From Flavonifractor sp. An112 (GTDB lineage Bacteria > Bacillota > Clostridia > Oscillospirales > Oscillospiraceae), in contig NZ_NFLU01000012.1 in assembly GCF_002161085.1 (NCBI RefSeq), forward strand, positions 1 to 57,557: a stretch of DNA of 57,557 bases, written 5' to 3'. The notes under the pieces are model-generated. The model was not told where the DNA came from. It saw only the letters and a list, made by a program, of their open reading frames with translations, and searched no databases. Position numbers and translations under genes: made by a program. Shown in pieces: positions 18,163 through 57,557 of the stretch. Position 1 is the first letter of the stretch, and every line of letters begins with the position of its first letter.

Positions 18163-19236
18163 ATGGAAGAAAAACAGAAAACCGGCAAGCTGCTGGAAGT
18201 GAAGGATCTCCACGTCTCCTTCTTTACCCCCGCCGGCGAAGTCAAGGCTGTGGGCGGCATCAGCTATGACCTGAACTATGACGAAGTCATGGGCATCGTG
18301 GGCGAGTCCGGCTCCGGCAAGAGCGTGGAGGCCTACTCCATCATCGGCCTGCTCCAGTCCCCCGGCAAGGTGGTGGGCGGCTCCATCACCCTGGAGGGCG
18401 AGGACGTGCTGGCCAAGAGCAAGGAAGAGATGATCGACCTGCGGGGCAACAAGGTGGCCATGATTTTCCAGAACCCCATGACCTGCCTGAACCCCGTGTA
18501 CACCATCGGCAACCAGCTCATCGAGGCCCTGAAGGCCCACGACAAGAAGGTCTCCAAGGAGGAGGCCGCCAAGCGGGCCATGGAGATGCTGGAGATGGTG
18601 GGCATCAACAACGTGGAAAAGCGGATGAAGCAGTATCCCCATGAGCTGTCCGGCGGTATGCGTCAGCGCGTCATGATCGCCATGGGCCTGATCTGCCATC
18701 CTCAGCTGCTCATCGCCGATGAGCCCACCACCGCTCTGGACGTGACCATCCAGGCTCAGATCCTGGAGCTCATGAAGGAGCTGCAGAAGAAGACCCACAT
18801 GGGCATCATCTTCATCACCCATAACCTGGGCGTGGTGGCCGAGATCTGCGACAAGGTCTCCGTCATGTATGCCGGCAAGATGGTGGAGCAGGGCCCTGTG
18901 GACGACATCTTCTACAAGCCCGGCCACCCCTACACCATGGGCCTGCTGCGGTCCATGCCCCGTGTGGACGCCGAGAGCTACGAGCGCCTGATCCCCATCG
19001 AGGGTACCCCCGTGGATATGCTCAATCCTCCCGAGGGCTGCCCCTTCGCTCCCCGGTGTGAATACGCCATGAAGATCTGCCTGCAGAAGATGCCTCCCTA
19101 TGTGGAGCTGGGCGACAACCACCGCTCCGCCTGCTGGCTGCGGGTGCAGGAGCAGATGGCCAGGGAGAAGGCCGGCCAGGCGGACGCCAAGCCCGCGCAG
19201 GAGACCGAGAACAAGGAGGCGGGCGACCATGAGTGA
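18163..19236 (+). CDS. oppD: Oligopeptide ABC transporter ATPase OppD
   Basis: 357 residues. Walker A GESGSGKS, Q-loop MIFQNPMTCLNPV, signature LSGGMRQR, Walker B LLIADEPTTALD and switch His (FITHNLG) are present. The C-terminal oligopeptide-binding extension carries the Cys cluster CPFAPRCEYAMKIC...C, which in relatives can hold an iron-sulfur cluster. The tail is Ala/Lys/Glu-rich. It overlaps oppF by eight bases. Confidence 0.95.
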   Translation: MEEKQKTGKLLEVKDLHVSFFTPAGEVKAVGGISYDLNYDEVMGIVGESGSGKSVEAYSIIGLLQSPGKVVGGSITLEGEDVLAKSKEEMIDLRGNKVAMIFQNPMTCLNPVYTIGNQLIEALKAHDKKVSKEEAAKRAMEMLEMVGINNVEKRMKQYPHELSGGMRQRVMIAMGLICHPQLLIADEPTTALDVTIQAQILELMKELQKKTHMGIIFITHNLGVVAEICDKVSVMYAGKMVEQGPVDDIFYKPGHPYTMGLLRSMPRVDAESYERLIPIEGTPVDMLNPPEGCPFAPRCEYAMKICLQKMPPYVELGDNHRSACWLRVQEQMAREKAGQADAKPAQETENKEAGDHE

Positions 19237-20263
19237 GAAGAATGATATCCTCGTTCAGGTAGACCACCTGAAGAAATACTTTGGCGTCAAGGGCCTGAAG
19301 GGCCCCGGCGTCCAGGCCGTGGAGGACGTGTCCCTGTTCATCAAGCGGGGCGAGACCCTGGGCCTGGTGGGCGAGTCCGGCTGCGGCAAGACCACCCTGG
19401 GCCGTACCATCCTCCAGCTCCATCCCCCCACGTCCGGCAAGATCGTCTATGACGGCGAGACCATCTTTGAGGGCGAGGACCCCTGGCAGAAGGACGAGAA
19501 CGGTCAGCTGATCCACGTCAAGACCCCCAAGCCCAAGGCAGTCAATATGCTGCCCTACCGGCGGAAGATGCAGATCATCTTCCAGGACCCCTCCGCCTCT
19601 CTGGACCCCCGTATGACGGTGGGCGAGATCATTGGTGAGGCCCTGGATATCCACAAGCTGTGCCCCAACAAGAAGGACCGCACCGACCGCATCAAGGAGC
19701 TGCTTGCCCGGGTGGGTCTGAACACCGAGCACGCCAACCGCTATCCCCATGAGTTCTCCGGCGGCCAGCAGCAGCGCGTGGGCATCGCCCGCGCCCTGGC
19801 GGTGCGCCCCGAATTCATCGTGTGTGACGAGCCTATCTCCGCCCTGGACGTGTCCATCCAGTCCCAGGTGGTGAATATGCTGGAGGATATGCAGCAGGAT
19901 CTGGGCCTGACCTATCTGTTCATCGCCCATGACCTGTCCGTGGTGCGTCACATCTCCAACCGTATCGGCGTGATGTATCTGGGTACCATGGTGGAGCTGG
20001 CTGAGAGCTACGAGCTGAACAAGCATCCCATCCACCCCTACACCAAGACCCTGCTGTCCGCCGTGCCGGTGCCCGATCCCGAGGTGAGCCGGACCCGTCA
20101 GCGTATCGTGCTCCAGGGCGATATCCCCTCTCCCATGAATCCGCCCACGGGCTGCCGGTTCCATACCCGCTGCCCCTACGCCACCGAGAAGTGCAAGGAG
20201 TGCGTGCCTCAGTTCAAGGAGCATTCGCCCGGCCACTACGCCGCCTGTCACCTGCTGGGCTAA
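19229..20263 (+). CDS. oppF: Oligopeptide ABC transporter ATPase OppF
   Basis: 344 residues starting [18 protein letters not shown], after AAGGAGGCGGG. Walker [23 protein letters not shown], signature FSGGQQQR, Walker [13 protein letters not shown], switch FIAHDLS, and the C-terminal [17 protein letters not shown] cluster are intact. The protein has a normal C-terminus ending HYAACHLLG. Immediately after its stop lies a hairpin repeat, and then a second copy of the last 44 bases of the gene (20407-20450), which is not translated as part of OppF unless the stop is read through. Confidence 0.95.
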
Positions 20264-20264
20264 G
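20221..20264 (+). repeat. oppF 3' tail, copy A (functional end of oppF)
   Basis: Forty-four bases encoding [13 protein letters not shown] and the stop, repeated at 20407-20450 with a single synonymous difference (Ser TCG here, TCT in copy B). It forms the left flank of the hairpin element. Confidence 0.95.
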
Positions 20265-20406
20265 AGGGGCGAATGGGCCTGCCGCCGCATTGCGGCGTCC
20301 AAGCGTTTTGGGCTGTGCCCAAAACCTTGATGCCGGGCGAATTCACTTCGCCCGAGCAGATGAAAGAGAATGGGGTACCCGCCCGGCGGCCTGAGCCGGG
20401 TGGGAG
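20265..20406 (+). repeat. Structured hairpin repeat element, copy 1 (after oppF)
   Basis: About 140 bases holding, in order: CGCCGC-ATT-GCGGCG (20283-20297); H1 GTTTTGGGC-TGT-GCCCAAAAC (20305-20325); linker CTTGATGC; H2 CGGGCGAA-TTCAC-TTCGCCCG (20334-20354); linker AGCAGATGAAA and TGGGGTA; H3 CCCGCCCGGC-N7-GCCGGGTGGG (20378-20404). The core is shared with the copy at 40921-41032, in the same orientation relative to its host gene. It contains no stop codon in the oppF frame. Confidence 0.85.
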
Positions 20407-20450
20407 GCATTCTCCCGGCCACTACGCCGCCTGTCACCTGCTGGGCTAAG
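20407..20450 (+). repeat. oppF 3' tail, copy B (duplicate)
   Basis: A second copy of the oppF gene end, 43 of 44 bases identical, including an in-frame stop. It is followed by the probable native oppF terminator (20495-20522), so this copy looks contiguous with the original downstream flank. Confidence 0.95.
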
Positions 20451-22825: not shown

Positions 22826-24151
22826 TTACCAGTTGCCGAAGGGGAAGTTGTAGTAGTAATTGCCGCCCTGCTGGGGTTGGGATTGCTGCTGCTGGCTGTT
22901 GTACTCCTCGCTCAGCTGATTCATGGCCTCCTGCCGCTCCTGGTTGTCCTCATCCAGGGTTACATTGACGGTGGAGGTGTTGCCGTCCCGGTAGATGGTG
23001 AAGGTGACGGACTCTCCCGCCTTGTGATCCTTCACAGCGCTCTGGAGCTGGGTCTCGGTAGATACCTGGGTGTCACCCACAGCGGTGATGATGTCGCCTA
23101 CCTGGAGGCCGGCTTTCTGGGCGCAGGAGCCGTCCAGGATGGCCATGATCTCCACACCGGCAGGCACGCCGTAGCGCTGAACGCTTTCATCCACGGCGTT
23201 GATGAGCACGCCCACGTTGGGCTTGCCGGTGACATAGCCGTTCTCCATAATGGAGGTGACCATGTCCTTCACGTCGTTGATGGGGATGGCGAAGCCCAGA
23301 CCCTCCACAGAGGCCTCCGAGCTGGAGCTGGAGGACAGCTTGGCGGACACGATGCCCACCACCTGGCCGTACTTGTCAAAGAGGGGGCCGCCGGAGTTGC
23401 CGGAGTTAATGGCGGTGTCGGTCTGGATCATGTTCATGACGGTGCCGTCGCTCATGGTGACCGAGCGGTCCTTGGCGGAGACGTAGCCGCCGGTGAAGGT
23501 GAAGGTCAATTCACCCAGAGGGTTGCCGATGGCGTACACATCCTCGCCCACATTGATGGCGTCCGAGTCGCCCAGCACCACGGGCCGCAGGTTGCCCTGG
23601 TCGATCTTCAGCACGGCGATGTCGTTCTCCTCCTCGCCGCCCACCAGGGTGGCGTCATAGCTCTTTCCGTCGGAGAAGAATACGGTGATGTCGCTGACGC
23701 CGTTGATGACATGGTAGTTGGTAAGGATGTAGCTGGCGGTGTCATTGGAACTGATGACGAAACCGGAGCCGGACACGGCGTTTTTAACGGTCTGGCCCCA
23801 CACGTTGGTGGTCACGTTGCCGTTGACGCCCACCACCGACTCCAGGTTGGAGGCGTACACCTCTTCGGCGGAGAGGACGGTCTTGCCGTCCACGTTGGCC
23901 AGGGACACGGCGGTGGGACGGGTGCCCTCGTAAATGGTGGTGGAGTTGCCGCCGAAGCGGTTGACAGCCCACACGCCGCCGCCGCCCACCGCGCCGCCGA
24001 TGATGGCGCAGCACAGGCCAACGGCAATGAACTTACCAAAGCCGCCCTTCTTCTTTTCCTTGGGGGGTACGGCGTCATACACATGGAACTGATTGGTTTC
24101 TATGACGGAGTCGCGGTCCTCGGGGGGCCGGTTATAATCACTGTAATACAT
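22826..24151 (-). CDS. HtrA/DegP-type serine protease with PDZ domain
   Basis: 441 residues. A cytoplasmic N-terminus (about 1-38, ending KEKKKGG), one transmembrane helix (about 40-63), a trypsin-like domain with His147 (TNYHV), Asp177 (ENDIAV) and Ser253 (NSGNSGGP), one PDZ domain (about 315-410), and a Gln-rich tail (NSQQQQSQPQQGG) ending YYYNFPFGNW. It degrades or refolds damaged proteins outside the membrane. Length and order match clostridial HtrA; the aromatic/Gln tail is unusual. Confidence 0.94.
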   Translation of the reverse strand: MYYSDYNRPPEDRDSVIETNQFHVYDAVPPKEKKKGGFGKFIAVGLCCAIIGGAVGGGGVWAVNRFGGNSTTIYEGTRPTAVSLANVDGKTVLSAEEVYASNLESVVGVNGNVTTNVWGQTVKNAVSGSGFVISSNDTASYILTNYHVINGVSDITVFFSDGKSYDATLVGGEEENDIAVLKIDQGNLRPVVLGDSDAINVGEDVYAIGNPLGELTFTFTGGYVSAKDRSVTMSDGTVMNMIQTDTAINSGNSGGPLFDKYGQVVGIVSAKLSSSSSSEASVEGLGFAIPINDVKDMVTSIMENGYVTGKPNVGVLINAVDESVQRYGVPAGVEIMAILDGSCAQKAGLQVGDIITAVGDTQVSTETQLQSAVKDHKAGESVTFTIYRDGNTSTVNVTLDEDNQERQEAMNQLSEEYNSQQQQSQPQQGGNYYYNFPFGNW

Positions 24152-35911: not shown

Positions 35912-35933
35912 CGAGACAAAAGGAGGGATGGCT

Positions 35934-36626
35934 ATGGAGGCCAACATTCTGGTGGTGGACGACGAGCCCGAGATCGCCGATCTGGTAGAGGTCTATTTGC
36001 AGAGTGAGGGCTGCACCGTCTACAAGTGCAACACCGGCACCCAGGCCCTGGCGGTGGTGAACAGCCGGTCGGTGGACCTGGCCATCCTGGACGTGATGCT
36101 CCCCGATATCAGCGGCTTTACCCTGTGCGGAGAGATCCGCAAGGACCACCATTTCCCGGTGCTTATGCTCACCGCCAAAGCGGAGGACATGGACAAGATC
36201 ACCGGGCTGACCATCGGGGCGGACGACTATATCACCAAGCCCTTCAACCCCCTGGAGCTGATGGCCCGGGTGAAGGCCCAGCTGCGCCGCTATACCCGCT
36301 ATAACGAGGCCGACAAGGGGGACAGCAAGGACATTCTGGACTTCAACGGTCTGGTTATCAACCGCTCCACCCATGAGTGTACTCTGTACGACAAGGAGCT
36401 CAACCTCACCCCCATCGAGTTTGACATCCTGTGGATGCTGGCGGAAAACCGGGGTCAGGTCATCTCCGCCGAGCGGCTCTTTGAGAGCGTGTGGGGGGAG
36501 AAGTACCTGGACCGGAACAACACCGTCATGGTCCACATCCGCCGCCTGCGGGAGAAGATGGGGGAACCCTCCCGCAACCCCCGGTTCATTAAAACCGTGT
36601 GGGGTGTGGGCTACAAGATCGACTAA
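35934..36626 (+). CDS. VanR-like response regulator (OmpR family)
   Basis: 230 residues starting MEANILVVDDEPE. The receiver domain has the acidic pair (VVDDEPE), the phospho-acceptor Asp in LAILDVMLPD, Thr in MLTAKAED and Lys in DDYITKPFNP. The C-terminal winged helix ends IRRLREKMGEPSRNPRFIKT and VWGVGYKID. The receiver most resembles the VanR-ABDEGLN group. The ATG at 35934 is seven bases from GGAGG; an in-frame ATG at 35928 is too close to it. The matching kinase is probably 33063-34202, on the other strand. Confidence 0.92.
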   Translation: MEANILVVDDEPEIADLVEVYLQSEGCTVYKCNTGTQALAVVNSRSVDLAILDVMLPDISGFTLCGEIRKDHHFPVLMLTAKAEDMDKITGLTIGADDYITKPFNPLELMARVKAQLRRYTRYNEADKGDSKDILDFNGLVINRSTHECTLYDKELNLTPIEFDILWMLAENRGQVISAERLFESVWGEKYLDRNNTVMVHIRRLREKMGEPSRNPRFIKTVWGVGYKID

Positions 36627-40835: not shown

Positions 40836-40920
40836 TTAGCCCAGCCGGGCCTCCAGCTCCGCCTTTTTATCTTCGTAACCAGGCTTACCCAGCAGGGCGT
40901 ACATATTGTTCTTATAGGCC
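40836..40920 (-). repeat. pgi 3' tail, copy B (duplicate)
   Basis: Eighty-five bases encoding [20 protein letters not shown], then ELEARLG and a stop, a second copy of the pgi gene end. It differs from the functional tail at 10 of 26 codons, all synonymous, plus one extra Gly codon. It has no start and is preceded by the hairpin element. Confidence 0.95.
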
Positions 40921-41032
40921 GCCCCACGGAACTACAGTTCCGTGGGGACCCCAAAGATTTGATCTGCTCGGGCGGAATAAATCCGCCCGGCATCAAGGTT
41001 TTGCCTGCGGCAAAACGCTTGTTGTGGAGGCC
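40921..41032 (-). repeat. Structured hairpin repeat element, copy 2 (after pgi)
   Basis: 112 bases directly after the pgi stop. In gene sense: H1 GTTTTGCC-GCA-GGCAAAAC (41016-40998), linker CTTGATGC, H2 CGGGCGGA-TTTAT-TCCGCCCG (40989-40969), linker AGCAGATCAAA and TGGGGT, H3 CCCCACGGAAC-TGTA-GTTCCGTGGGG (40947-40922). Linkers match the oppF copy; the stems differ with compensating changes. Confidence 0.88.
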
Positions 41033-41114
41033 TTACAGTCTGGCTTCCAACTCAGCTTTTTTATCTTCGTAGCCGGGTTTACCCAGCAGGGCGTACATAT
41101 TATTCTTGTAGGCC
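41033..41114 (-). repeat. pgi 3' tail, copy A (functional end of pgi)
   Basis: Eighty-two bases encoding the last 26 residues of Pgi and its stop; the partner copy is at 40836-40920. All base differences within shared codons are silent. Confidence 0.95.
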
Positions 41115-42364
41115 TCCACGCCGGGCTGGTCGAAGGGGTTGATCTCCAGCAGGTAGCCGGACAGGCCGCAGACGTACTCAAAGTAGTAGATCAGCGCGCC
41201 CACGCTCTTGGCGCAGCGGCCGGGGGCGGTGACCATCAGGTTGGGCACGCCGCCGTCCACATGGGCCAGCAGGGTGCCCCGCATGGCCTGCTCGGCCACG
41301 AAGGACAGGTCCTTGCCCGCCAGGAAGTTGAGCCCGTCCACGTTATCGGGGTCGTGGGGGATGGTGATGGCGGGGCCGTTGCTGTTGGCAAAACGCACCA
41401 CGGTCTCCAGCATGAGGCGCTCGCCCTGCTGGATGTACTGGCCCATGGAGTGCAGGTCGGCGGTGAACTCCACGCTGGCGGGGAACAGGCCCTTGCCGTC
41501 CTTGCCCTCGCTCTCGCCGAAGAGCTGCTTCCACCACTCGCCGAAGAACCGGAAGGAGGGCTCGTAGCCCACCAGGATATCCACCTTCTTGCCGGCGGTG
41601 TACAGGGCGTGGCGGGCGGCAGCGTGCTGCCAGGCGGGGTTGGCCTCACCGGGCACAGCCAGGGTCTCCATCTCCTCCCGGGCGCCCTCCATCAGGGCAG
41701 CAATGTCCACACCGGCGCAGGCGATGGGCAGCAGGCCCACGGCGGTGAGCACGCTGTAGCGGCCGCCGATGGCGTCGGGCACCACGAACTCCTCGTAGCC
41801 CTCGGCGTCGGCCAGACCCTTCAGGGCACCCTTGTGGGCGTCGGTGGTGGCGTAAATGCGCTTGCGGGCCTCCTCCTTGCCGTACTTCTCCTCCAGCAGA
41901 TTCTTGAAGATACGGAAGGCCACGGCGGGCTCGGTGGTGGTGCCGGACTTGGAGATCACGTTGATGGACCAGTCCTTATCCTTGATGAGGTCCATCACCT
42001 CCAGCATGGCGTCGGTGGACAGGCCGTTGCCGGCGAAGTAGATGGCGGGGCCGTCCTTGTGGGTCAGGTTGAAATTGGGAGAGTTGACCAGCTCCACCAC
42101 GGCCCGGGCGCCCAGATAGGAGCCGCCGATGCCGATGACCACCAGGGCCTGGGAGGTGGCGCGGATGCGCTCCGCCGCCGCCTGGATGCGGGCAAACTCT
42201 TCTTTATCATAGTCCCGGGGCAGGTGGACCCAGCCGGTAAAGTCGCCGCCGGCGCCGCTGCCGGTCTCCAGCTTCTGACGGGCGCTCTCCAGGGCGTCCA
42301 GACGGCTGGTGAGCCAAGTGTCGGGCAGGAAAGAACGGGCGTTGGAGGTGTCGATTTGAATCAT
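41033..42364 (-). CDS. pgi: Glucose-6-phosphate isomerase
   Basis: 443 residues. Landmarks: VIGIGGSYLGARA, VISKSGTTTEPA (phosphosugar site), the catalytic Glu in FGEWWKQLFGESEGK, and the C-terminal Lys/Gln region EINPFDQPGVEAYKNN. It interconverts glucose-6- and fructose-6-phosphate. The ATG is ten bases after GGAG. The gene end (41033-41114) is duplicated downstream, separated by a hairpin element. Codons in this functional tail (AAA AAA GCT, TTG, GAA, AGA) are less GC-rich than the rest of the gene. Confidence 0.96.
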   Translation of the reverse strand: MIQIDTSNARSFLPDTWLTSRLDALESARQKLETGSGAGGDFTGWVHLPRDYDKEEFARIQAAAERIRATSQALVVIGIGGSYLGARAVVELVNSPNFNLTHKDGPAIYFAGNGLSTDAMLEVMDLIKDKDWSINVISKSGTTTEPAVAFRIFKNLLEEKYGKEEARKRIYATTDAHKGALKGLADAEGYEEFVVPDAIGGRYSVLTAVGLLPIACAGVDIAALMEGAREEMETLAVPGEANPAWQHAAARHALYTAGKKVDILVGYEPSFRFFGEWWKQLFGESEGKDGKGLFPASVEFTADLHSMGQYIQQGERLMLETVVRFANSNGPAITIPHDPDNVDGLNFLAGKDLSFVAEQAMRGTLLAHVDGGVPNLMVTAPGRCAKSVGALIYYFEYVCGLSGYLLEINPFDQPGVEAYKNNMYALLGKPGYEDKKAELEARL

Positions 42365-42474
42365 GGTGACGTCACTCCTTTTATGTTTCACAAAGCCAGA
42401 ATCGGCTGATGCCTTTATCATACACCCGGGGACCGGCTTTGACCAGAGAAAAAAGCCAATTCCCGGAAAAACCT

Positions 42475-44572: not shown

Positions 44573-45931
44573 TCAGTTCTTCAGGCTCTGCATGGGGGCG
44601 GGGATACGGCCGCCCCGGGCCACGAAGGCCTCAGCGCTCTCGGAGTGGACGGGCATAACGGGGGCGGAGCCCAGCAGGCCGCCGAATTCCACGGTGTCGC
44701 CCACCACCTTGCCGGGGGCGGGGATGATGCGGACGGCGGTGGTCTTGGAGTTGACCATGCCGATGGCGGCCTCGTCGGCGATGATGGCGGAGATGGTGGC
44801 GGCGGAGGTGTCGCCGGGGACCGCGATCATGTCCAGACCCACGGAGCACACGCAGGTCATGGCCTCCAGCTTGTCCAGGTGGAGGGTGCCGGCACGGGCG
44901 GCGGCGATCATGCCCTCGTCCTCACTGACGGGGATAAAGGCGCCGGACAGGCCGCCCACATGGGAGGAGGCCATGACGCCGCCCTTCTTCACCGCGTCGT
45001 TCAGAAGGGCCAGGGCGGCGGTGGTGCCGTGGGTACCGCAGGTCTCCAGACCCATCTCCTCCAGGATGCGGGCCACCGAGTCGCCGATGGCGGGGGTGGG
45101 GGCCAGGGACAGGTCCACAATGCCGAAGGGCACCCCCAGACGGCGGCTGGCCTCCTGGGCCACCAGCTGACCCATACGGGTCACCCGGAAGGCGGTCTTT
45201 TTGATGGTCTCGGCCACCACGTCAAAGGGCTGGCCCTTCACGTCCTTCAGGGCGTGGTGCACCACGCCGGGGCCGGACACGCCCACGTTGATGATGCAGT
45301 CGGGCTCGCCCACACCGTGGAAGGCGCCGGCCATGAAGGGGTTGTCCTCCACGGCGTTGCAGAACACCACCAGCTTGGCGCAGCCAAAGCCGCCCTTGTC
45401 GGCGGTGAGCTGGGCGCACTCCTTGATGATGCGGCCCATGACGCCCACGGCGTTCATGTTAATGCCTGCCTTGGTGGAGCCCACATTGACGCTGGCGCAC
45501 ACCAGGTCGGTGCGGGCCAGGGCCTCAGGGATGGCGGCGATGAGCTTCCGGTCGGCCTTGGTGGCACCCTTCTGCACCAGGGCGGAGAAGCCGCCGATGA
45601 AGTTGACGCCCACCGCTTTGGCGGCGCTGTCCAGGGCCACGGCAAAGGGCACGTAGCTGTTGGTCTCGGAGGCGCCGGCCACCAGGGCCATGGGAGTCAC
45701 CGAAATGCGCTTGTTGACGATGGGAATGCCGAACTCCCGCTCAATGGCCTCGCCGGTGGCCACCAGATGCTCGGCCTGGCGGGTAATCTTGTCGTAGATC
45801 TTGCGGCAGGCGGCGTTGGGATCGGAGTCGGCGCAGTCCAGCAGAGAGATGCCCATGGTAATGGTACGCACATCCAGATGCTGCTGGTCGATCATGTGGA
45901 TGGTGTCAAAAATTTCGTTGGTATTGATCAT
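44573..45931 (-). CDS. UPF0210 / DUF711 'PFL family' protein
   Basis: 452 residues, a full-length member of the conserved UPF0210 family (landmarks [41 protein letters not shown]-type stretch, [19 protein letters not shown]). Despite the 'PFL' nickname it has no glycyl-radical motif and no pyruvate formate-lyase activity is known. It nearly always pairs with the ACT-domain protein encoded 12 bases upstream, as here. The function is unknown. Confidence 0.93.
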
Positions 45932-50052: not shown

Positions 50053-52692
50053 TTACCGGGGGTTCTTGATGGCGGCCTGAGCAGCGGCCAGACGGGCGAT
50101 GGGCACACGGAAGGGGGAGCAGGACACATAGTCCAGGCCGACCTTGTGGCAGAACTCCACAGAGGTGGGGTCGCCGCCGTGCTCGCCGCAGATGCCCATA
50201 TGGATGTCGGGACGGGTCTGATGGCCCAGCTGGACGGCCATGGCCACCAGCTTGCCCACGCCGTTCTGATCCAGGTGGGCGAAGGGATCGGACTCGTAGA
50301 TCTTCTTGTCGTAGTAGTAGCTCAGGAACTTGCCGGCGTCGTCCCGGGAGAAGCCGAAGGTCATCTGAGTCAGGTCGTTGGTACCGAAGGAGAAGAACTG
50401 AGCCTCCTTGGCGATCTCGTCGGCGGTGAGGGCGGCACGGGGGATCTCGATCATGGTGCCAACCTCATACTTCATGTCGATACCGGCGGCGGCGATGATG
50501 GCGTCGGCGGTCTTGACCACCACGTCCTTGACGTACTTGAGCTCCTTGACCTCGCCCACCAGGGGGATCATGATCTCGGGCACCATGGTCCAGTCGGGAT
50601 GCTTCTTCTGGACGTTGATGGCGGCGTTGATGACGGCGGTGGTCTGCATGGCGGCGATCTCGGGATAGGAGACGGCCAGACGGCAGCCGCGGTGACCCAT
50701 CATGGGGTTGAACTCATGCAGGGAGGCGATGACGTTGTGGAGCTTCTCCAGAGGGATGTTCATCTCCTTGGAAATCTCCACGATGTCCTCCTCCTTGGTG
50801 GGGAGGAACTCATGCAGCGGGGGATCCAGGAAGCGGATGACCACGGGATGACCCTGCATGGCCTCATAGATGCCCTCAAAGTCGCCCTGCTGATAGGGCA
50901 TGATCTTGGCCAGAGCCTTCTCACGGTCGGCCACGTTGTCGGAGACGATCATCTCACGGATGGCCTTGATGCGCTCGCCCTCGAAGAACATATGCTCGGT
51001 GCGGCACAGGCCGATGCCCTGCGCGCCAAAGGCGTAGCCCTGAGCGGCGTCACGGGGATTGTCGGCGTTGGTGTACACCTTGAGCTGACGGTACTTGTCG
51101 GCCCAGCCCATCAGGCGGCCAAAGTAGCCGGAGCCGGGATCGGCGGGCACAGTGGCGATGGCCTCGCCGTAGATGTTGCCGGTGGAGCCGTCCAGGGAGA
51201 TCCAGTCGCCCTCATGGTAGTCCTTGCCGGCCAGAGTAAACTTCTTGCCCTCGTAGTCCACCACGATATCGCCGCAGCCGGACACGCAGCAGGTGCCCAT
51301 ACCGCGGGCCACCACGGCGGCGTGGGAGGTCATGCCGCCGCGGACGGTGAGGATACCCTGGGAGACCTGCATACCCTCGATGTCCTCGGGGGAGGTCTCA
51401 AGACGGACCAGGATGACCTTCTCGCCGCGGGCGTGCCACTCCTTGGAGTCCTCGGCGGTAAAGACCACACGGCCGCAGGCGGCGCCGGGAGAGGCGGCCA
51501 GGCCCTTGCCCACTGCCTGGGCCTTCTTCAGGGCCTCGGGGTCAAAGGTGGGGTGGAGCAGGGCGTCCAGCTGCTTGGGATCGACGCGGCACACGGCCTC
51601 CTTCTCGTCGATCATGCCCTCATCCACCAGATCCACAGCCACCTTCAGGGCGGCGGCGGCGGTGCGCTTGCCGTTGCGGGTCTGGAGCATATAGAGCTTG
51701 CCGTTCTCAATGGTAAACTCCATGTCCTGCATATCCTTGTAGTGCTGCTCCAGGCGGTTGGCGATGTCGGCGAACTGCTCGTAGACCGCGGGCATCTCCT
51801 CGTGAAGCTTGGAGATGGGAGAGGGGGTACGTACGCCGGCCACCACGTCCTCGCCCTGGGCGTTGATGAGGTATTCGCCGAAGAGGGCCTTCTCACCGGT
51901 GGCGGGGTTGCGGGTGAAGGCCACGCCGGTACCGGAGTTGTCGCCGGAGTTGCCGAACACCATGGACTGCACGTTGACGGCAGTGCCCCAGTCGTAGGGG
52001 ATCTCGTTCATGCGGCGGTACACGTTGGCACGGGGGTTGTCCCAGGAGCGGAACACGGCCTTGACGGCTTCCATCAGCTGGACCTTGGGGTCCTGGGGGA
52101 AGTCCTCGCCCTTTTCCTTCTTATAGAACTCCTTGAAGAGAACCACCAGGTGCTTCATGTCGTCGGTGTCCAGCTCCACGTCCTGCTTGACGCCCTTCTT
52201 GGCCTTGACCTCGTCGATGATCTCCTCAAAGCGCTTCTTGGACAGCTCCATGACCACGTCGGAGAACATCTGAATGAACCGGCGGTAGGAGTCGTAGGCG
52301 AAGCGGGGGTTGTTGGTAAACTTGGCCAGGCCTTCCACCACCACGTCGTTGAGGCCCAGGTTGAGGATGGTGTCCATCATACCGGGCATGGAGGCCCGGG
52401 CGCCGGAGCGGACGGAAACCAGCAGGGGGTTCTCGGGGTCGGCAAACTTCTTGCCGCAGATCTCCTCCATCTTGCCCAGGTACTCGTAGATCTGGGCCTG
52501 AATGTCCTCGTTGATCTGACGACCGTCATTATAGTACTGGGTGCAGGCCTCGGTGGTCACGGTAAAGCCCTGAGGCACCGGCATACCCAGATTGGTCATT
52601 TCGGCCAGATTGGCGCCCTTGCCTCCCAGCAGCTCACGCATAGAGCCGTTGCCTTCGGAGAACAAGTAGACGTACTTGTGAGAATTGCCCAT
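50053..52692 (-). CDS. ppdK: Pyruvate, phosphate dikinase
   Basis: 879 residues, normal length. The nucleotide-binding N-domain (LLGGKGANLAEM, SVRSGARASMPGMMDTILNLG), the phospho-His in VRGGMTSHAAVVARGMGT (about residue 455), and the PEP-site Cys in HMGICGEHGGDP (about 830) are intact. It interconverts pyruvate and PEP using ATP and phosphate, in the glycolysis of many anaerobes. AGGAGG lies nine bases before the ATG at 52692; a GTG six bases upstream is too close. Confidence 0.97.
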   Translation of the reverse strand: MGNSHKYVYLFSEGNGSMRELLGGKGANLAEMTNLGMPVPQGFTVTTEACTQYYNDGRQINEDIQAQIYEYLGKMEEICGKKFADPENPLLVSVRSGARASMPGMMDTILNLGLNDVVVEGLAKFTNNPRFAYDSYRRFIQMFSDVVMELSKKRFEEIIDEVKAKKGVKQDVELDTDDMKHLVVLFKEFYKKEKGEDFPQDPKVQLMEAVKAVFRSWDNPRANVYRRMNEIPYDWGTAVNVQSMVFGNSGDNSGTGVAFTRNPATGEKALFGEYLINAQGEDVVAGVRTPSPISKLHEEMPAVYEQFADIANRLEQHYKDMQDMEFTIENGKLYMLQTRNGKRTAAAALKVAVDLVDEGMIDEKEAVCRVDPKQLDALLHPTFDPEALKKAQAVGKGLAASPGAACGRVVFTAEDSKEWHARGEKVILVRLETSPEDIEGMQVSQGILTVRGGMTSHAAVVARGMGTCCVSGCGDIVVDYEGKKFTLAGKDYHEGDWISLDGSTGNIYGEAIATVPADPGSGYFGRLMGWADKYRQLKVYTNADNPRDAAQGYAFGAQGIGLCRTEHMFFEGERIKAIREMIVSDNVADREKALAKIMPYQQGDFEGIYEAMQGHPVVIRFLDPPLHEFLPTKEEDIVEISKEMNIPLEKLHNVIASLHEFNPMMGHRGCRLAVSYPEIAAMQTTAVINAAINVQKKHPDWTMVPEIMIPLVGEVKELKYVKDVVVKTADAIIAAAGIDMKYEVGTMIEIPRAALTADEIAKEAQFFSFGTNDLTQMTFGFSRDDAGKFLSYYYDKKIYESDPFAHLDQNGVGKLVAMAVQLGHQTRPDIHMGICGEHGGDPTSVEFCHKVGLDYVSCSPFRVPIARLAAAQAAIKNPR

Positions 52693-52747
52693 TTTCACAT
52701 TCCTCCTAAGTTTGCCCCGCCTGGGGCGGGACGGTTCACTGGGTCAT

Positions 52748-55922: not shown

Positions 55923-57557
55923 TCAATATTTGTTGACCATTCCCGAGATCAGGGGGGTGGGCACCAGCCACATGATGAGGAACACCAGCAGGTTGGAGGC
56001 CGACAGGGAGGCGTAGGCTCCCACAAAGGTGAGGTAGAAGGCCAGAATCAGGCCTACCACCGCCCCCAGGCTGGCCAGCACCGCCGAGGTGCGGACGGCC
56101 CGGCGGAGCCGGGCGGCGCCTACCACCGCCTCGGAGTAGGGCCCGATGCCCTCCCGGCAGAGGACGGCGGTGAGAATGTCGCTGTGGAGCTGGTCCTCGT
56201 CGGACAGCTCCATCCGCCGCTCCACAGAGGGGTATTCCATCCGGTCCACCGGCAGCTTGAATCGCTGGCGGAGCATGGCGGGGGTCAGGTTGAAGTCCCG
56301 GGTGGCCATCACCGGGGACACCCGGTTGCGGATCAGGCTGGTGAGGGCCGGGTCCACCGTGCCGTGGAGGGTGTAGTTCAGGGCGAAGATACCCGCCAAC
56401 TCCCCGTCGATGGCACAGAATACGGCGTTCTTCACATGAAGTCCCGGGGGCAGGGCAATCTCCATCAGCCGCATGAAGTCGGCGGAGCCCACCAGTACCT
56501 GTTCGTTGCGGATGACGCCGGACAGGCCGCCCTCATAACAGAAGAAGTTGGATACCCGGCGGTAAATGGCCCCCTGGGCCCGGAGCAGGTCGTGGAAGGG
56601 CTTGTCCAGGCCGCAGCCCGATTCCCGGATGAGGGTGGCGGTATCGGCTACCACCTTTTCTGCCGGGAAGTCGCCGAAGATCTTGATGCCGTTGAGGGAG
56701 ACACAGCCCGGGGGGAACAGGTCGGAGTCGGTGACCAGAATGCCGCTGCCGCCGGTGGCGGTGACGCCGTCCCAGCCGGCGATGGCGGCCCCCGATTTGC
56801 TCAGCCGCTGGCACAGGGTAAGCCAGGGCTGCCCGAAGCACAGGGCCCCCGACAGGGAGGCGGAGGCGGTGAGGGTGGCGGACAGGCACCACAGCAGCCG
56901 CTCCGGCGCGCCCCGGCCAATGGAGGCCACGATGCTCAGCAGCATACTGGCGATAAACAGCAGGGGGCAGATCCGCCGGAAAATACGCTGGGCGCCGTCG
57001 CTGGCCTGCATCTGCCGGCCAAAGCCTACCGGATCGCCCGACCACTTGGCGTAGGTGTCCCGGCCGTTCCACTTGCCCTCATCCAGGGTGACCAGATAGG
57101 GGTGGGAGGCGGCCGCCGCCGTCTTACAGGCCAGCCGCAGACCCCGCCGCTTTCGGTAGGTGCCCCGCAGCAGCAGGGAGATGCCCAGCACAATGGCGGC
57201 GCAGTAGGGCATCTGGCCCTCCCGGGGGTCCAGCTTGAACATGGTAAGGGCGTCGGCCAGGGTGGCGGCGGAGGCAAAGAGCAGCAAGGTGTCCATGCCG
57301 AACTCCAGCCGAAGCAGGCCGAACAGACCCCGGAAGAGGACATCCAGTCCCAACAGCATGGCCAGCACCTGGACCCCGGCCAGGGCCAGCACCCGCAGCT
57401 CAGGCGTAAGGGCCTGGGGATGGGGAAAGACCTCCAGGGTCAGATAGAGGGCGGGCAGGAACAGCAGGAGGACCAGGGTGGCCCTCAGCCGCATCCCCTT
57501 GAGACCCTTGCCGTACCGTTTGGCCAGATCCGCCGGGGGCAGATCGGGGGCGGGAGG
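55923..57557 (-). CDS. Degenerate P-type-ATPase-like membrane protein, partial (cut by right edge)
   Basis: At least 544 residues; the frame stays open to the window edge, so the start is outside. Two N-terminal hydrophobic segments, a soluble loop, paired helices (CPLLFIASMLLSIVASIG, LLWCLSATLTASASLSGALC) and a terminal pair (LASLGAVVGLILAFYLTF, LLVFLIMWLVPTPLISG) follow P-type ATPase order. Where the phosphorylation motif DKTGT should be, the sequence reads ILVTDSDLFPPG, and no GDGxND motif is visible, so ion-pumping activity is unlikely. Function unknown; it could be a regulator or pseudo-enzyme. Confidence 0.65.
   Translation of the reverse strand, partial: PPAPDLPPADLAKRYGKGLKGMRLRATLVLLLFLPALYLTLEVFPHPQALTPELRVLALAGVQVLAMLLGLDVLFRGLFGLLRLEFGMDTLLLFASAATLADALTMFKLDPREGQMPYCAAIVLGISLLLRGTYRKRRGLRLACKTAAAASHPYLVTLDEGKWNGRDTYAKWSGDPVGFGRQMQASDGAQRIFRRICPLLFIASMLLSIVASIGRGAPERLLWCLSATLTASASLSGALCFGQPWLTLCQRLSKSGAAIAGWDGVTATGGSGILVTDSDLFPPGCVSLNGIKIFGDFPAEKVVADTATLIRESGCGLDKPFHDLLRAQGAIYRRVSNFFCYEGGLSGVIRNEQVLVGSADFMRLMEIALPPGLHVKNAVFCAIDGELAGIFALNYTLHGTVDPALTSLIRNRVSPVMATRDFNLTPAMLRQRFKLPVDRMEYPSVERRMELSDEDQLHSDILTAVLCREGIGPYSEAVVGAARLRRAVRTSAVLASLGAVVGLILAFYLTFVGAYASLSASNLLVFLIMWLVPTPLISGMVNKY

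Follow-up and report, generated by a model that had tools for sequence, protein, structure and literature searches.

The end of the pgi gene raises the question of why a bacterial gene should carry its 3' extremity twice, and with differences that leave the protein unchanged. In the window, by which we mean the whole stretch of 57,557 nucleotides analyzed from Flavonifractor sp. An112, the last codons of pgi (41033-41114) are repeated at 40836-40920. This 82-nt direct repeat is 85% identical, with a distal copy of 85 nt and a start-to-start spacing of 194 nt. Its score is 104; when 1000 pairs were formed from stretches of different genes, the 99th percentile was 29 and the highest score 71. 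The name pgi was taken from the original prediction, and orthologues from 17 genomes of the genus were compared codon by codon. That prediction, a gene end present twice with silent-only divergence, held true: at this locus (L068), 10 codons differ silently and no residue is changed within the shared part, the single replacement in the tally of 10 silent and 1 replacement codons being the codon that straddles the junction.

All parts of the locus lie on the reverse strand. The pgi ORF (41033-42421, 462 aa), whose true start may be downstream of 42421, uses the proximal tail t1, delimited by repeat comparison at 41033-41114, as its functional end. The duplication begins in the middle of a target site, GTGGA/GGCCT, located within the gene at 41110-41119. 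In the tail joined to pgi, the stop codon leads directly into a guide (41024-41033) that overlaps the last base of this stop and is the reverse complement of GTGGAGGCCT over 10 of 10 positions. Next comes a hairpin body (40921-41023; match to our covariance model R1 at 40922-41033, E 3.4e-26), which is below the full-length form in size, and then the distal tail t2 (40836-40920), which we take as the displaced older pgi end with its native 3' flank.

The separator between the two tails had been described as a hairpin element; this was confirmed, and the element is a member of a dispersed family. By DNA similarity, a 285-bp query found 17 matches to the hairpin part in the source genome, window copy counted. 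The model R1, built from an alignment of 17 bodies in which RNAalifold reported double changes at 10 of 23 pairs, gave 29 matches in this genome at E<1e-4. Inspection of the window copy and 16 others located the element mostly behind the stop of a different gene each time, some of these genes being presumably groEL, alaS and the like, and a second copy of the respective gene end lay 3' of the element in most of them. R1 matched 19 of the 61 genomes of the bacterial family, with 0 to 29 matches per genome. In a sample of 148 genomes spanning the class it matched two, which also belong to the Oscillospiraceae. From the named pgi relatives, we judge the hosts to be Oscillospiraceae near Flavonifractor and Pseudoflavonifractor.

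The body measures 108-194 nt by model match (median 133) and contains up to five hairpins by eye. Over 91 bodies, pairing in the model structure amounts to 96%. Double-change cells number 254, versus a mean of 71 after shuffling, and the covariation score is 0.346, falling to 0.018-0.061 once the partners are slid; the alignment had been fitted to the tested structure and favours it. In the two main hairpins, 16 G-T cells were counted versus 3 A-C cells (row sum), which suggests that the orientation as drawn is that of the folding strand; the other hairpins of the full-length form are a by-eye reading. The family consists of small non-coding hairpin elements with no protein of their own.

After removal of an antisense shadow match (L085), 143 loci were analyzable for repeats. 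A repeat scoring at least 40 upstream and downstream of the element is found at 112 of them, a score attained by only two of the 1000 control pairs mentioned above. At 103 of the 143 loci the duplication starts between -8 and +12 nt of the 3' end of the body; it is 26-145 nt long (median 66) and mostly corresponds to a gene end. These 103 loci, a count that includes orthologous insertions in related species, represent 59 gene clusters and include 22 of the 29 loci of the source genome. By this anatomy the insertion leaves the gene intact, one copy of its end lying before the element and one behind, and such a layout may let the element enter genes without breaking them.

The pgi guide is one case among many. 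A guide touching or spanning the junction, as the reverse complement of the target, was detected at 84 of the 103 loci and in 49 of the 59 clusters, as opposed to 21 of 3000 mismatched pairs from different genes and 2 of 103 loci in direct orientation; when the search was confined to a narrower window, 49 of the 103 loci exceeded 99% of the null. Over the 84 loci, selected for having a match, the pairing frequency is 0.92-0.98 at positions -2 to +5 and at least 0.71 at -5 to +7, versus 0.22-0.35 past -7 and +12, and the longest perfect guides reach 21 nt (L141) and 19 nt (L119). The stretch ahead of the body is therefore a putative built-in guide of about 13 nt, complementary across the insertion point.

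Other arrangements were seen at some loci. In L050 and L051 (both G000), another small repeat-like insert lies in the distal tail, less than about 250 nt downstream of the element, and apparently replaces about 8-14 nt. In L176, L177, L179, L195, L184, L189, L155, L159, L172 and L171, it is the start of a gene that appears to be duplicated, in antisense; the apparent start codons differ by eye between the two copies of L184 and L189 (GTG/TTG and GTG/ATG, respectively).

We then compared the end of pgi across the genus, the locus being obtained from 18 of 20 genomes. An element was recognized by eye at the pgi end of 10 of these 18, at three different targets: the window-type element at target 1 (G000, G002 and G008), and another element type both at target 2 (G002, G006, G013 and G016) and at target 3 (G004, where the contig ends within the element, G011, G014 and G017). 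G002 and G008 display three tails and two elements stacked, as read by eye. A single tail had been predicted for relatives lacking the element, and was indeed found, by eye, in six of the 18 genomes for pgi (G009, G015, G003, G007, G001 and G005) and in five of 20 for the second gene described below. In G018 the contig stops at the pgi end. Two further pgi ends are worth describing. In G014 (L022), tail, guide and element form a tandem repeat that is near-exact over the stretch printed. In G012 (L014), a partial second tail is separated from the first by a few bases and no body, which is likely the deletion footprint of an element.

The two pgi tails of the window differ in their affinities. 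The distal tail is followed by the same 3' flank, by eye, as the single tails of the element-free G009 and G007. The proximal tail is similar only to the tail of G002, which carries the same element (0.947; next best 0.867), and contrasts in this with the upstream part of pgi, which is 0.93-0.96 identical to six species. The C-termini also differ, RL-stop for the proximal tail and RLG-stop for the distal copy. The original prediction considered that the distal copy had added this glycine, and the relatives speak for the reverse: five of the six element-free ones end in RLG-stop or RLGG-stop and one in RL-stop, so that the functional tail probably lost its terminal glycine.

Silent divergence changes abruptly along the gene. 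Over 17 genomes, the synonymous difference of pgi is 0.100-0.286 in the upstream bins of 25 codons; the three successive bins that begin with the target-1 codon give 0.450, 0.387 and then 0.385. The six element-free genomes give 0.086-0.251 upstream, with 0.126 in the last bin, then 0.508, 0.465 and 0.346. The step begins at the insertion codon, element-free genomes included. As a control, 42 predicted ORFs of the window were compared with three relatives; 41 are listed, most with one relative only, and since the calling of these ORFs by script relied on GC at third positions, some are possibly on the wrong strand. Where the next gene lies within 25 nt there is no terminal rise, with 0.12-0.18 over the last 30 codons versus 0.158 past codon 80; genes with gaps of at least 60 nt rise to 0.28 in the last 10 codons. 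A value of at least 0.30 over the last 25 codons was observed for seven of the 41 genes. The highest is pgi (0.49 versus 0.10 upstream), and the second element-bearing gene of the window is among them (0.39 versus 0.18). The others are 35928-36626 (0.39 versus 0.15), 50053-52698 (0.32 versus 0.13), 55923-57494 (0.33 versus 0.18), 1830-2180 (0.30 versus 0.19) and 22826-24151 (0.30 at the end versus 0.33 upstream). Four of the six genes other than pgi have no known element or are diverged throughout. At orthologous insertions elsewhere (42 pairs) the rise is smaller, from 0.094-0.166 upstream to 0.12-0.23 in the first 24 tail codons. One candidate control, 44573-45931, was dropped in favour of this window-wide one, as it shows a step itself near its end and has an apparent element in G001 and G014; in these two orthologues (L243 and L244) the apparent element lies, by eye, directly behind the stop.

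A second gene of the window displays the same 3' arrangement, on the forward strand (script-called ORF 19100-20263, locus L048). Its proximal tail copy (20221-20264, locus L060) is 44 nt long and 98% identical to the distal copy found by repeat comparison at 20407-20450, and a second hairpin element lies between them at 20266-20402 (R1, E 1.5e-29). The second gene that we surveyed across the genus (G000 C12, C-terminus VADAMIWQGVSY), which we take to be probably glutamate dehydrogenase, shows the tail-element-tail order in 12 of 20 genomes, a tail and guide without second tail in three (G002, G019 and also G018, since its contig ends there), and no element in five. Stacked units were seen by eye in G001, G014 and G005.

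What follows the stop is informative here. The proximal flank, from stop to guide, has a terminator-like hairpin. It was cut out in 14 genomes, and in every one of them it is similar to the flank of one or more other genomes with an element (best scores 36-99), while its scores against element-free flanks do not exceed 19. In G000 and G006, on the other hand, the distal flank matches that of the element-free G007 and G009 (scores 96-105), as against 17 and 16 with their own proximal flank, where 99% of shuffles score 19 or less and the maximum is 23. Altogether, the flanks behind the two tails are unrelated in seven of 11 comparable genomes (scores 12-17) and related in four (G008, G003, G001 and G014; scores 64-119). 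Among these seven, G017 gives an ambiguous reading, since the flank behind its distal tail is similar to the proximal-type flank found in other genomes (score 37). In at least six genomes, then, a gene end of another kind is preceded by a tail that has a terminator, a guide and a body of its own. At other genes, using thresholds set by ourselves and with 47 loci too short for the comparison, the flanks were related at 12 of 24 judgeable loci and unrelated at 12. In L345-L364 (the second gene) and also in L066, L105, L149 and L156, the T-run of a terminator-like hairpin, just ahead of the guide, often marks the end of the proximal flank or lies close to it. Such an ending could point to a transcript end as the source of the proximal flank.

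The silent bias of pgi is a property of the family. At 102 loci with an assigned frame, the tail copies differ by 251 silent and 50 replacement codons for the 84 sense loci, and by 64 silent and 31 replacement codons for the 18 loci assigned to antisense, some of which are mis-assigned. A neutral distal copy would show mostly replacement changes. A link between decay of the distal tail and a broken guide or hairpin was considered and set aside as weak, the ratio of replacement to silent changes being 0.30 at 26 loci with either one broken and 0.17 at 56 loci with both intact.

Starting from what is directly observed, namely the position of the element, its guide, the duplication, the stacking, the covariation and the differing flanks behind the distal tail, we propose that a unit made of tail, guide and body spreads between alleles and species, repeatedly taking over gene ends and leaving the old tail behind. 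We hold this reading to be somewhat more probable than its opposite. The distal tail would then be the old gene end and could be used as a homology arm for the spread, and successive rounds of takeover would stack units in the order t1-element-t2-element-t3. Both tails would look like protein because each recently served as the working end.

Several results go against such a takeover. An apparent fidelity of the guide to the proximal tail (37 of 41 sites) was discarded, the guide having been found by alignment to that same tail. In an unbiased repeat with 17 unambiguous differing guide sites, the guide agreed with the proximal tail at seven, with the distal tail at six and with neither at four. 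The divergence of the first tail is not correlated with that of the body (rho -0.01, p 0.93), and is correlated with that of the second tail (0.64), both over 52 of 54 pairs, L099-L141 and L141-L156 being left out. These two tests, of guide fit and of divergence, speak rather against the idea that tail and element travel together. The related flanks found in four of 11 genomes at the second gene and at half of the judgeable loci elsewhere also count against it, as do the rise at the end of some window genes with no known element, the greater likeness of tails within a genome described below, and the failure of Y1 transposase and reverse transcriptase to track the element. The original prediction, according to which the element perhaps swapped in a tail from a diverged lineage and kept the old one behind it, is thus partly supported. 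It agrees with the element-free type of flank behind the distal pgi tail, the restriction of the proximal tail to G002, the silent step at the insertion codon and the unrelated flanks of the second gene; a joint arrival of tail and element at each locus is not supported by the two tests just given. The family-wide guide-bearing element, the duplicated end at most insertions and the three target sites at the pgi end go beyond what had been predicted.

Another hypothesis is that the duplications are old and arose in situ, by template switching of replication at the hairpin, followed by ordinary recombination and gene conversion with no dedicated mobility. Tails of the same genome are closer to each other than to the corresponding tails across species in 34 of the 52 pairs (mean 0.946 versus 0.923), which suggests in situ duplication or gene conversion. 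In L143, moreover, a variant is present in both tails of G006 and in that genome only, and the related flanks at 12 of the 24 informative loci point in the same direction. This hypothesis fits poorly with the occurrence of element and duplication together at 22 places of the source genome, the scattered distribution over 19 of the 61 genomes of the bacterial family, the three insertion sites in the pgi end and the silent-divergence step, which suggest a recurrent and specific process. As a full explanation we regard it as unlikely. Together with the guide fit and the lack of correlation, the closeness of own tails rather indicates that in situ duplication, gene conversion and transfer probably all act.

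It could also be imagined that both tails are in use, the element and the proximal tail being removed precisely by RNA splicing or by reversible DNA excision. The half-site would thereby become continuous with the distal tail, and the guide would act as the internal guide sequence does in a group I intron. The guide has the geometry of a sequence that pairs on both sides of a splice point, and the body covaries with an excess of G-T over A-C cells in its two main hairpins. The other loci of each gene also served to polarise the changes, with cruder frames and with 160 silent and 89 replacement differences not assignable: at unanimous sites, 41 silent changes and 11 replacements fall on the proximal branch, against 42 silent changes and 21 replacements on the distal one, again mostly silent. 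The distal stop, furthermore, is retained at 69 of 75 judgeable sense loci. It is nevertheless lost at the other six, and the distal tail is itself interrupted in L050 and L051, perhaps also in L157, L088 and L097, where the repeat starts are shifted. The antisense-assigned loci, several of them gene starts, are silent-biased as well (64:31 over 18 loci, with the mis-assignments mentioned above), which splicing of a sense-strand RNA cannot explain; for this reason we rate RNA splicing alone lower. No Rfam intron family was matched up to E 1. On the whole, use of both tails seems to us rather improbable. As for an assembly artefact or a dead chance duplication, it is scarcely conceivable given the silent bias between tails and the recurrence of the arrangement at pgi in G000, G002 and G008 and at 103 loci overall.

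Coming back to the takeover of gene ends by a mobile unit, one may ask how the element could move. A tentative possibility, in which we place less confidence than in the takeover itself, is that of a guide-directed mobile RNA or single-stranded DNA with no protein gene of its own. The guide would pair with its target, and the 3' end of the body would be joined at the middle of the duplex. The strand end on the left would be extended through the gene end, thereby rebuilding the host gene end ahead of the element, and joined to the 5' end of the guide, giving the observed order. The ends of important genes could thus be colonised harmlessly, with subsequent homing into the same gene of other strains.

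A parallel may be drawn with known systems. In its logic the family comes nearest to the WHO (HO-like) homing elements of the yeasts Torulaspora and Lachancea, as reported by Coughlan et al. 2020 (PMC7282813): the WHO protein, encoded by these elements, cuts FBA1, the 3' end of the gene is replaced at each integration, giving a diverged 3' part next to a conserved 5' part, and the old ends remain as fragments in clusters, where the most recent element lies closest to the gene. Replacement of a gene end, retention of the old one and clustering are found here too, indirectly, by genome comparison. Our element differs by being non-coding, about 105-140 nt long as a rule, present at many genes and equipped with a guide complementary to its target. 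Model matches of 108-194 nt leave no room for a homing nuclease gene. Group I introns and IStrons share with it a short guide in the element that pairs with the flank at the junction, according to a survey (PMC4227781); IStrons are reported there not to duplicate their target, unlike the hairpin element family, which duplicates gene ends. Internal guide pairing is indeed present, the guide reaching the junction in 84 of 103 loci (null 21/3000). The U-G wobble of group I introns at the junction was not found, position -1 being Watson-Crick in 0.92 of the 84 loci; over the 103 loci this position is A in 45, G in 27, T in 20 and C in 11, and where the element has bases in common with its target, the exact junction may be misplaced by a few positions. 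Searches of Rfam with the pgi stretch and with 10 loci brought up no intron family at E values up to 1, and all matches obtained were below the gathering level.

MITEs and REP/BIME repeats are small, non-coding, hairpin-forming, dispersed and multi-copy. The present family shares these general features and differs by its insertion-specific guide and the gene end it carries; the short fixed target duplication of MITEs was not observed, the duplications here ranging from 26 to 145 nt. Integrative elements located in gene 3' ends bring an attachment site that restores the gene end while the old end is displaced. Unlike them, the hairpin element has no room for an integrase gene, and its guide is complementary to the junction. 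An IS200/IS605-type element does not fit either, as there is a target duplication and the Y1 transposase does not track the element (4 of 10 element-rich versus 3 of 14 genomes without element match). Reverse transcriptase (RVT_1) was found in 5 of 11 element-rich versus 2 of 14 element-free genomes, one of them under the cut-off and some genomes being incomplete; in both counts, element-free means no match at E<=0.001, with filters that lose weak matches. Between these two candidates compared across genomes, no mobilising enzyme was found, and it is possible that the enzyme is supplied from elsewhere.

The terms that we tried in the open PMC literature returned no description of such a family, which is weak evidence of novelty. 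If our reading is true, the hairpin family would be a type of mobile element uniting the absence of any protein, a guide to its own junction and a carried replacement of the host gene end, three traits that are not seen together in the kinds of element we could name. With different guides at different genes, it would also constitute a naturally retargeted insertion system. For the bacteria that harbour it, it would explain how a core gene like pgi comes to have a several-fold higher silent difference at its 3' end, and it would confound gene trees and annotations in these organisms.
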